Position numbers and translations under genes: made by a program
The notes under the pieces: generated by a model
What the model was told of the DNA's origin: nothing
Seen by the model: the letters and a program-made list of their open reading frames with translations, nothing else
Databases searched by the model: none
Shown here: in pieces, positions 2,684 through 19,062 of the stretch
Numbering within the stretch: the first letter of the stretch is position 1
How the letters are laid out: each line of letters starts with the position of its first letter
Origin: Bacteroidaceae bacterium
Lineage (GTDB): Bacteria > Bacteroidota > Bacteroidia > Bacteroidales > Bacteroidaceae
Assembly (NCBI GenBank): GCA_017645305.1
Contig: JAGCPD010000006.1
Span: forward strand, 1 to 64,000
Length of the DNA stretch: 64,000 nucleotides
Direction of reading: 5' to 3'

Positions 2684-2850
2684 GAAATGGGGCACTGTTG
2701 TAACGCTACAAAAGGTCAAAAAATCGAAATGGGGGTGTATTTTCACGGCGAAACAACACAAAAAATCGAAATGGGGGTGTATTTTCGCGACGAAACAGTG
2801 CCCAATATTGAAATGGGGGTGTGTTTCCACGGCGAAACAGTGCCCAATAT
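2684..2850 (+). repeat. 42-bp tandem repeat array 1
   Basis: Four units begin with GAAATGGGG at 2684, 2726, 2768 and 2810, exactly 42 bp apart; the last unit is 41 bp and degenerates. Units 2-4 share the core GAAATGGGGGTGT. A 69-codon reading frame crosses the array (2687-2896) giving 14-residue repeats, but the complementary strand is open too, so coding is not shown. The array ends 58 bases before an Asn-rich-tail gene. The same arrangement recurs at 17719-17970 with an unrelated 42-bp unit. Confidence 0.85.
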
Positions 2851-2908
2851 GAAAAAAACGGGCTGTTGTCAGCCCACAACAACCATAAACAATTAAAAAT
2901 AAAACATT

Positions 2909-3817
2909 ATGAGTCTGGCAACAAATTATTTAGCTAAAGTGTCCGTTGCAGAGCATGACGGACTGGTGAGACAAATTCTGGGTAAGCTGCAGGCTTCGGG
3001 TATCAGTAACGAAATGTTCCTGCAGCGCCTGACTGCCTATGCTGCAAGAGTGGAAGAGGAGGACGAGGCCTACCGGCAGTCGCAGAAGGACTTTGACAGC
3101 GACCGCTTGAAGGATGAGGACAGTGTGCTCGACATGTACGTTAAGGCTGTTCGGGCCATCCTGAACGGTCATGCAGAGATTCCCGCTGCAGAGCCGAACC
3201 ATCAGTTGGCCATCGAACTGATTCAGGTGTTCAAGGACTACAAGTTCTCTCCTTCCGACACCTACACGGCTGAGGCTGACAAGGTGAGAAACATGAATCA
3301 GGTGTTCCAGGGCAGGCTGGCCGATCTGGAGACGCTGGGCGTGAAGGACTACTGGACGCAGGCGGTGGCTCGTGCTGCAAATGTTGAGCAGCTGCTGTCA
3401 CAGCGTTTCAACACCATTGCAGCGCAGCAGGTGGGTGCAGTGAAAACGGCCCGCGCCAATACCGACCAGGCACTGAAGGCGATGTACGAGCTGCTTTCAG
3501 CCATGAACGTGATGATGCCGTCAACAGCCCTTACCGACCTTATTGCCCAGCTGGATGCCATAGAGAGCTATGCCTGCCAGTACTACCTTAGCGGCAAGAA
3601 GCCTTCGGCAAACAGCGGCAACGCAGCGTCGGGGAACCAAAACCAAAACGATAACGAAAACCAAAACAATAATAATAACGGGAACAACCAAAACGAAAAC
3701 AATAACAAAAACAATAACAATAACGACAATAACGGAAACGATAATCCCGGTGGGGATGACAATGGGAACGATAATCCGAACCCGAACCCGGGAGGGGATG
3801 ACCCCATTGAAGACTAA
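2909..3817 (+). CDS. helical protein with Asn-rich acidic tail (DUF6261-like)
   Basis: A 302-residue protein without a signal peptide. Residues 1-230 are predominantly alpha-helical by composition and resemble the Bacteroidetes family DUF6261; this match is from memory and tentative. Residues 235-302 are low complexity: Asn/Gln/Asp runs, then GGDDNGNDNPNPNPGGDDP and a final IED. The locus is bracketed by a 42-bp array upstream and by a terminator plus AT-rich repeat downstream. A frameshifted paralogue at 18000-18967 shares the DEAYR motif and an almost identical last 50 bp, although the helical domains are strongly diverged. The function is unknown; a structural or binding role is only a guess. 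Confidence 0.75.
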   Translation: MSLATNYLAKVSVAEHDGLVRQILGKLQASGISNEMFLQRLTAYAARVEEEDEAYRQSQKDFDSDRLKDEDSVLDMYVKAVRAILNGHAEIPAAEPNHQLAIELIQVFKDYKFSPSDTYTAEADKVRNMNQVFQGRLADLETLGVKDYWTQAVARAANVEQLLSQRFNTIAAQQVGAVKTARANTDQALKAMYELLSAMNVMMPSTALTDLIAQLDAIESYACQYYLSGKKPSANSGNAASGNQNQNDNENQNNNNNGNNQNENNNKNNNNNDNNGNDNPGGDDNGNDNPNPNPGGDDPIED

Positions 3818-3822
3818 GTACA

Positions 3823-3850
3823 AAGAAAGAGCGCTGCGGCGCTCTTTCTT
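3823..3850 (+). terminator. intrinsic terminator of Asn-rich-tail gene
   Basis: A perfect 12-bp stem (3823-3834 with 3839-3850) closes a TGCG loop and ends in a T-rich arm. It lies 6 bases after the stop codon. Confidence 0.75.
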
Positions 3851-3853
3851 CGT

Positions 3854-3895
3854 CAATGGATAATGGATAATTGATAATGGACAATTAACAATAAC
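3854..3895. repeat. AT-rich dispersed repeat, family A
   Basis: Repeated short phrases of the type TGGATAATTGATAATGGACAATTAACA follow the terminator. Related copies lie at 18998-19062 (intergenic), 8998-9039 (inside GH95) and, more loosely, 36048-36082 (inside the GLUG protein). Confidence 0.75.
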
Positions 3896-17718: not shown

Positions 17719-17970
17719 GACAGCGGACGGCCTCCGCCAGCCAAAACGAGTGTTCCGGCGGACTGTCCACGGGCATGGACAACCAGAACGAGTGCTCCAA
17801 CAGACAATCCACGGCCATGGACAGCCAGAACGAATGCTCCGACAGACCGTCCACGGGCATGGACAACCAGAACGAGTGCTCCAACAGACAATCCACGGGC
17901 ATGGACAGCCAGAACGAGTGCTCCAACAGACAATCCACGGCCATGGACGGCCAGAACGAGAATGAAAACT
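17719..17970 (+). repeat. 42-bp tandem repeat array 2
   Basis: Six units of exactly 42 bp begin at 17719, 17761, 17803, 17845, 17887 and 17929. The middle four are nearly identical (GAC..TCCACGGGCATGGAC...); the first and last are diverged. All three forward frames and several reverse frames stay open, an automatic result of a stop-free 3n repeat, so coding is not established. One forward frame gives MDNQNECSNRQSTG repeats, a composition close to the Asn/Gln-rich tail of the gene that starts 30 bases later. Confidence 0.9.
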
Positions 17971-17999
17971 TATTATAAATCACTAAAACTTCAACAATC

Positions 18000-18967
18000 A
18001 TGTTTCAAAACATTCCACAAGTGCAGAGCGCACCTATCGCTCAATTCAAGCTCACTCATTTCGTTGGGCTGATGACATTTACCAAGGATCAGTTTGCAGG
18101 TTTCTTCACCGCTGCCAATCCGGCACAGGCGAAGCTGGCTGCTCAGCTGACAGAGTTTAACCAAAAGTACCAAGTGCTGGACGAGGCTTACCGTGCCGAC
18201 AGCTATAGCTTGGATACCGAGAAACTGAAGAAGGCCGACGAGGATTGCGACCACACCTTCATGGGCATCAAAAAAAGATGACGCAGGCACAGCAGGCCTT
18301 CGACTTTAACCCGACAGTGAAGGATGCTGCCGACCGCATGATGCAGTGCATTGACAAATTTGAGATTAACGTAGCCGAGGACTACCTGGGCGAGAATAAC
18401 AAAATGCAGCAGTACATTGCTGAGGTTAATAGCTCGGCACAGCTGACAACCGATGCCCAGACGCTGGGCTTACAGCCAGCTTTGGCACAGCTCAACGAGA
18501 AGGTGACCCTGCTGCGCGACCTGCTCACCCAGCGCGGCATGGCCAAGGCACCCAAGGGGCAGATGAAGGCCGCCCGTGCCGCCATGGAGCCTGAGTACCG
18601 CTGGCTCATCGCTGTACTGAATGCATACGCCATTGTTGACGATAATCCTCAGCGCTTCGCCACACTTGTTGCAGCATTGAATAGCAATATCGACTACCTC
18701 CGCGTACATGCCCTGAAGGACGGCGGTGAGACTGCAGGACAGGGTGGAAACTCTGAGAACAACGAAAACCAAAACCAAAACAACGGGAATAACAATAACA
18801 ACCAAAACGATAACGAAAACAATAATAATAACAACAATACCAATAACAATAACGGAAATGATAACCCCGACAATGGGAACAACGGAAACGATAATCCCGA
18901 CAACGGGGATAACGGGAACGATAATCCGAACCCGAACCCGGGAGGGGATGAACCCATTGAAGACTAA
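18000..18967 (+). pseudogene. frameshifted paralogue of Asn-rich-tail protein (DUF6261-like)
   Basis: The reading frame from 18000 (MFQNIPQVQSAPIAQFKL...) stops at 18281. The other half continues in the -1 frame, KKMTQAQQAFDFNPTVKDAA..., to 18967. The switch lies at a run of seven A at 18270-18276. With one added A the product would be about 322 residues: helical domain, then an Asn/Gln/Asp-rich tail ending GGDEPIED. The last 50 bp are almost identical to the paralogue at 2909-3817. Both halves keep family features, so the mutation is recent or is bypassed by slippage on the A run. Sequencing error cannot be excluded. Confidence 0.7.
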
Positions 18968-18970
18968 AAG

Positions 18971-18996
18971 AATCGCCTTTCGGGGCGATTTTTTTA
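18971..18996 (+). terminator. intrinsic terminator of paralogue
   Basis: A 7-bp stem (18971-18977 with 18984-18990) with a TTTCGG loop is followed by a T-tract. It starts 3 bases after the stop codon. Confidence 0.85.
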
Positions 18997-18997
18997 G

Positions 18998-19062
18998 TCA
19001 ATTGACAATTGATAATGGATAATTAACAATTAACAACTAACAACTAACAATGAACAATGGAT
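18998..19062. repeat. AT-rich dispersed repeat, family A
   Basis: A longer version of the 3854-3895 repeat, with tandem AACAACTAACAATTAACAATT phrases. It occupies the same place relative to the Asn-rich-tail gene and its terminator as the copy at 3854. Confidence 0.8.

Follow-up and report, generated by a model that had tools for sequence, protein, structure and literature searches.

The window, a stretch of 64,000 nucleotides from a contig of a Bacteroidaceae bacterium (JAGCPD010000006.1), holds two copies of a cassette, at 2684–3895 and 17719–19062, in which a tandem array of 42-bp units is followed by a gene of the DUF6261 family (PF19775), a terminator and an AT-rich repeat (Table 1). All four parts are present in the sequence at both copies, as the original prediction had claimed, and it was also right that the array units of the two copies are mutually unrelated and that the last ~50 bp of the two genes are nearly identical. 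The core array of copy 1 is preceded by a degenerate unit (2684–2725) which resembles the older distal array of another locus of the same genome (C70). An A-run near 18270 (18245–18290) carries a frameshift that breaks the gene of copy 2 into the ORFs 18000–18281 (93 aa) and 18245–18967 (240 aa), and this shift can be either real or an assembly error. A search of Rfam gave nothing near either copy.

Table 1: Features of the two cassettes, with positions in the window.
Feature	Position	Strand	Basis or remark
Copy 1 array, 42-bp units	2684..2854	+	TRF; core 2726–2854, 3.1 copies, 84% match
Copy 1 leader, array end to start codon	2855..2908	+	sequence
Copy 1 DUF6261 gene, 302 aa	2909..3817	+	PF19775 58.3 bits, cut-off 27
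Copy 1 Asn-rich, low-complexity tail	3610..3793	+	sequence
Copy 1 C-terminal tag GDDPIED and stop	3794..3817	+	pattern search; common to HU-type genes of the same genome
Copy 1 intrinsic terminator-like hairpin 3' of gene	3818..3855	+	sequence
Copy 1 AT-rich repeat	~3855–3885	.	dispersed repeat, judged outside the system
Copy 2 array, 42-bp units, 5.3 copies	17738..17960	+	TRF, 87% match
Copy 2 leader, array end to start codon	17961..17999	+	sequence
Copy 2 DUF6261 gene, frameshifted, ends in tag GDEPIED	18000..18967	+	PF19775 58.9 bits on second part
Copy 2 intrinsic terminator-like hairpin aatcgcctttcggggcgattttttt	18968..18997	+	sequence
Copy 2 AT-rich heptamer repeat	18999..19058	.	dispersed repeat, judged outside the system

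Two of these parts do not deserve the status of cassette elements they had been given. The AT-rich heptamer repeat is found in 21 islands in 395 kb elsewhere in the same genome and, being dispersed, does not belong to the cassette. The terminator is no more than a normal end of a gene, as a terminator-like hairpin follows the gene at 30 of 80 DUF6261 loci compared with 4 of 80 shuffled ones. The Asn-rich tail does exist but turned out to be the local form of a more general pattern, a disordered acidic tail (median charge per residue -0.14 in the family) closed by a species-specific tag.

In the surroundings of copy 1, a leucine-rich-repeat gene with coding tandem repeats of 63/126 bp (414–1044) lies two genes upstream; the C70 locus (L002) too has an LRR-like gene before it. 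The motif TTGTAACGCTACAA or close variants of it occur in the arrays of copy 1, of the C70 locus and of two other species (sites at 2684–2725 of the window, L019, L076 and L443:5960–6299), the units of these arrays being otherwise unrelated.

DUF6261 genes and their upstream arrays

AlphaFold2 gave two confident models of DUF6261 proteins, both all-helical; the protein of copy 1 consists of helices only (pLDDT 92.3) with the helical domain covering approximately residues 1–225. The domain is acidic in the family, with a median pI of 5.5. Using the models as queries, Foldseek found no match at E ≤ 0.001 in the PDB or among viral models, and VIA-align aligned a portion of the model with Z values reaching 10, a match of helical bundles that may reflect only a common arrangement. 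In the Pfam search of the window protein only DUF6261 scored over the cut-off and neither a transposase nor a nuclease domain was detected, PADLOC, NCBIfam and PHROGs gave nothing useful for DUF6261, and no study of the family was found in a literature search that covered mainly open-access papers, the one article there to mention DUF6261 being on an unrelated subject.

To see how general the arrangement is, we collected 143 DUF6261 loci from Bacteroidales and one flavobacterium, made up of a first set of 104 loci across genus, family and class with at least 150 bp of upstream sequence and 39 further ones. A tandem array with a period of 40–43 bp lies upstream of the gene at 101 of the 143, a number to be read with the fact that many loci are paralogues or orthologues and thus not independent samples. 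Most homologues therefore do possess an array, and the periods are not scattered but cluster at 41–42 bp (40 bp in 4 arrays, 41 in 45, 42 in 47 and 43 in 5), contrary to both of the refuting outcomes named in the original prediction. The first set alone contains 80 arrays in 104 loci (period 41 in 29, 42 in 45), and nearly all of its upstream tandem repeats with a period of at least 15 have one of 39–43. Some DUF6261 loci are without a recognisable array, and among the 24 of the first set about half still show 41 or 42 as the strongest lag. Of the six DUF6261 genes in the window's genome two are truncated at a contig end, and each of the other four is directly preceded by a 41–42-bp array. The identical length of 42 bp noticed in the original prediction thus holds for both copies but is no exact rule in the family, and its suggestion that the period itself matters was borne out, the period being a conserved feature.

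DUF6261 was found in Bacteroides, Phocaeicola, Segatella, Hallella, Parabacteroides, Tannerella and Bergeyella; the carriers of arrays, many of them gut and oral Bacteroidota, include Tannerella forsythia, Parabacteroides, Bacteroides, Mediterranea, Hallella and the flavobacterium Bergeyella cardium with 10.6 copies of 41 bp. Chance is excluded as the origin of the arrays, because 400 kb of a member of the genus with no DUF6261 match (G016) contain no non-coding array of period 38–43, compared with three arrays of period 41 in 400 kb of a genome with eleven DUF6261 matches (G078).

The spread of periods also decides on the suggestion that the 42-bp unit encodes a repeat peptide of 14 residues. 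Although the array of copy 2 lies within an open frame of 124 codons, Pfam returned no family match for this frame, and with a period of 41 bp just as frequent as one of 42 (45 of 101 arrays, with 40 or 43 in another 9) the reading frame would shift with each unit. This reading can be dismissed for practical purposes and is already refuted for the family.

At five loci (L089, L080, L093, L019 and L232) two or three arrays with different units follow one another, which looks as though new arrays arise next to existing ones. Two contigs of the window's genome, C63 and C50 (L005 and L006), both begin at one point inside near-identical DUF6261 genes, and arrays or duplicates probably broke the assembly there. 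A scan for the Bacteroidota promoter motif gave too few matches to tell where the promoter lies with respect to the array. A phage origin of the arrays was considered and rejected on the weak evidence that two arrays were unmatched in phage records and one 28-mer in viral contigs.

Symmetry of the array units and arrays in trans

The sequence of the units is as variable as their length is constant. Between loci, units are no more alike than random sequences (identity 0.41 vs 0.40) as long as the proteins share at most 50% identity, and where the proteins share 60–80% the identity of the units is just 0.50–0.56; within one array units are mostly 75–97% identical. What is constant across the family is the period, the place before the gene and the symmetry, each unit being an imperfect palindrome over its full length (mean z 1.76, t=9.5, p~1e-14, 80 arrays). 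A weak motif common to the units has the same symmetry (information 10.1 vs ~7.9 in shuffles), and symmetric positions vary about half as much as the other positions between units of one array (ratio 0.52, 95% CI 0.46–0.60; random axes as control 0.955 ± 0.09). DUF6261 arrays thus have the dyad symmetry and the conserved positions by which we would recognise an array of sites.

Palindromic units in front of a gene could also work as RNA, namely as a 5' leader of tandem hairpins bound by DUF6261 for feedback on its mRNA or as the antitoxin of a type III toxin-antitoxin system. The position would suit this, with the array ending at most 60 bp from the start codon at 34 of 80 loci, and ToxIN-type antitoxins are tandem repeats of 34–36 nt ahead of the toxin gene (PMC5086642). 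Unpaired columns are moreover asymmetric between strands: A is frequent and T scarce in them on the sense strand (0.305 vs 0.162), a hint of some strand-specific feature. The pairing itself, however, carries no signature of RNA: G-U changes are not favoured over A-C changes at paired positions (composition-corrected quotient 1.01, CI 0.76–1.38) and compensatory double changes show no excess (9 vs 7.3). Fold energies of the units are below those of shuffles, but about equally on both strands, and RNA hairpins were rejected as the explanation; the results on pairing changes and strand folding speak for DNA sites without being decisive. Further points against an RNA element are the all-helical DUF6261 protein, the difference in repeat sequence among related proteins and the existence of arrays without a gene in both orientations, described below. 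In type III systems a rho-independent terminator separates the repeats from the gene (PMC5086642), whereas a terminator-like site between array and gene was found near background in DUF6261 loci (5 of 80 vs 2 of 80 shuffled). Nor is DUF6261 one of the toxins ToxN, CptN or TenpN, judging from Pfam, the missing PADLOC match and the models. With terminator and toxin family both lacking, membership in the type III systems (ToxIN, CptIN, TenpIN) fails despite the likeness of short tandem repeats directly upstream of the gene, and we disfavour an RNA-level function in general and consider it unlikely.

In the window's genome two array families, those of the copy 2 unit and of the DUF6261 locus on C49, recur in trans without a DUF6261 gene; for the copy 1 unit no separate trans array was found in the search of this genome. 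The copy 2 unit forms a 3-copy array on the minus strand at C69:100334–100452, where it adjoins 24-bp units of the kind that precede a HU-type gene on C54. The long C49 array is found again together with its leader at C72:3819–4183 (L405:2318–2684), where either the gene was lost or array and leader were copied. For seven of the nine DUF6261 array families of G078 copies exist elsewhere, including arrays of 7.4, 8.7, 6.1 and 5.0 copies. Trans arrays occur in either orientation and without a DUF6261 gene, and apart from C72 and short matches beside the array ends they have no substantial leader in common with the cis loci. Between cis and trans units 10% of the symmetric positions are changed compared with 34% of the others. 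At least five trans arrays lie between convergent genes (C3, C7, C17, C19 and C42, read from ORFs), so they are not confined to promoters. We regard the trans arrays as the strongest evidence, at the level of sequence, that the units are probably sites on DNA, and the binding-site reading that had been offered in the original prediction fits the dyad symmetry, the conservation of symmetric positions and the trans arrays alike.

The double array on C69 (C69:100240–100452; L400:2741–2958), with DUF6261-type and HU-type arrays side by side, is located upstream of a carbamoyl-phosphate synthase gene and also next to a gene with an HTH-like start.

HU-HIG arrays and common C-terminal tags

A second family with upstream arrays is HU-HIG (PF18291), with 10 genes in the window's genome at E ≤ 1e-10. 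HU-HIG proteins, on which Burroughs and colleagues reportedly published a paper in 2017, contain a HU-type domain and are unrelated to DUF6261 by sequence. Upstream arrays were found for 36 of 75 HU-HIG genes of the genus (loci L208–L237 and L251–L290), with periods of 22 (33 arrays), 44 (7), 21 (5) and 23 bp (1), and their units are palindromic too (mean z 0.98, p=6e-6). Units of these arrays are present at several further places of the window's genome. Arrays of 22 bp are common in the 400-kb stretches of both G016 (18) and G078 (14), whereas 41-bp arrays occur in DUF6261 genomes and are absent from the 400 kb of G016. With 41–42 bp for DUF6261 and 22 bp for HU-HIG the period thus goes with the protein family.

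This bears on the idea that another protein, a nucleoid protein or a regulator, binds the arrays and that DUF6261 is merely regulated by them and acts elsewhere through its tail. An acidic DUF6261 without DNA-binding signature and the many trans sites near unrelated genes would agree with it, but a period specific for the gene family would not, and private unit families would require one private binder for each paralogue, which makes this idea quite improbable.

Within a species, DUF6261 and HU-HIG proteins share a short C-terminal peptide, so that the species-specific tag of the DUF6261 tails is carried by HU-HIG as well. A pattern search found DEPIED or a close variant in 6 genes of the window's genome, both DUF6261 and HU-type, GGLAG in 26 genes of three relatives and NEDTIQGLE or NEDTIHGLE in 13 genes of other relatives, and every tagged gene with enough sequence to be classified is DUF6261 or HU-type. 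Because the codons of the tag vary synonymously, the peptide looks selected and not just recently copied. The common tags connect DUF6261 with the multi-copy HU-HIG family and suggest a putative joint partner.

Known systems and a proposed mechanism

In the iteron–Rep systems of plasmids, the binding protein is encoded next to its tandem sites, which follow one another at intervals of whole helical turns. DUF6261 arrays are likewise tandem and beside a gene, but they are chromosomal and form numerous paralogous pairs in each genome, a replication initiator domain was not found in DUF6261, and the unit sequence is not conserved within the family. HU-HIG is similar in being multi-copy and in its species-specific tails, upstream palindromic arrays and tags, and differs in domain and period. 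In TIGR-Tas, arrays with palindromic parts and unit-specific spacers stand beside one gene for a Nop-domain protein (PMC12045711). Each TIGR unit carries two differing spacers, in contrast to the mutually similar units of DUF6261 arrays, and a Nop domain was neither matched by Pfam in DUF6261 nor present among the structure matches listed; without unit-specific spacers membership in TIGR-Tas fails.

Similar in layout are the RAYTs (REP-associated tyrosine transposases), whose genes adjoin their own palindromic repeats, the REPINs, with intergenic copies and several independent pairs per genome (PMC3116915). DUF6261 genes also have cognate palindromic repeats beside them and intergenic copies, and the arrays could accordingly be a selfish or domesticated repeat, a dispersing satellite DNA which DUF6261 maintains or spreads and for which physiology is secondary. 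The fast turnover of the unit at fixed period would be in line with this. Yet DUF6261 is a helical protein unrelated to the RAYTs, with a tag at the end of its disordered tail and without a Pfam match to the IS200/IS605-type tyrosine transposases or to any other transposase or nuclease, its trans copies are few and are head-to-tail arrays of fixed 41–42-bp period instead of doublets, and the fixed period together with the conserved C-terminal tags suggests selection on function. We therefore consider such a satellite rather unlikely; the layout resembles RAYT-REPIN or iterons and belongs to neither.

For the pairing of each DUF6261 gene with a private family of DNA sites that its own protein binds, the sequence data leave us evenly balanced between belief and doubt. 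The candidate sites are the imperfect palindromes repeated head to tail every 41–42 bp, approximately four helical turns; an array of them directly precedes the gene, and in many cases one to three more arrays with this unit lie between genes elsewhere. On them DUF6261, presumably oligomeric and possibly together with a partner, would assemble one protein repeat per 41–42 bp, so that the spacing would be set by the packing of the protein on DNA. Binding at its own gene would feed back on expression, binding in trans would mark, bridge or compact other places, and the disordered tail would serve, through its species-specific tag, to bring a single common partner to every complex; HU-HIG proteins appear to act likewise on their 22-bp arrays. 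The acidic domain without a clear fold match counts against DNA binding by DUF6261, and the strand asymmetry of the unpaired columns and the loci that lack a recognisable array also weigh against this reading. As unit sequences turn over fully at 50% protein identity, the specificity of such a protein would need to change fast or recognition would need to be by shape.

More tentatively, and with more doubt than confidence, both families might form a chromosomal addressing system of Bacteroidota with many orthogonal lanes. Each lane would consist of one paralogue (DUF6261 or HU-HIG) and its private arrays, located beside its gene and at a small number of further sites, and the protein family would determine the period. 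One common partner that reads the tag would serve all lanes, and the system would organise the chromosome or tell own from foreign DNA. Autoregulation, chromosome organisation and self/non-self discrimination are possible roles.

A fixed period that is kept through complete turnover of the sequence is unusual and allows the geometry of binding to be predicted. DUF6261, a family with no known function, gains a concrete and testable partner in its own array, and if the pairs are orthogonal, they would provide many independent protein–DNA address pairs for gut anaerobes.
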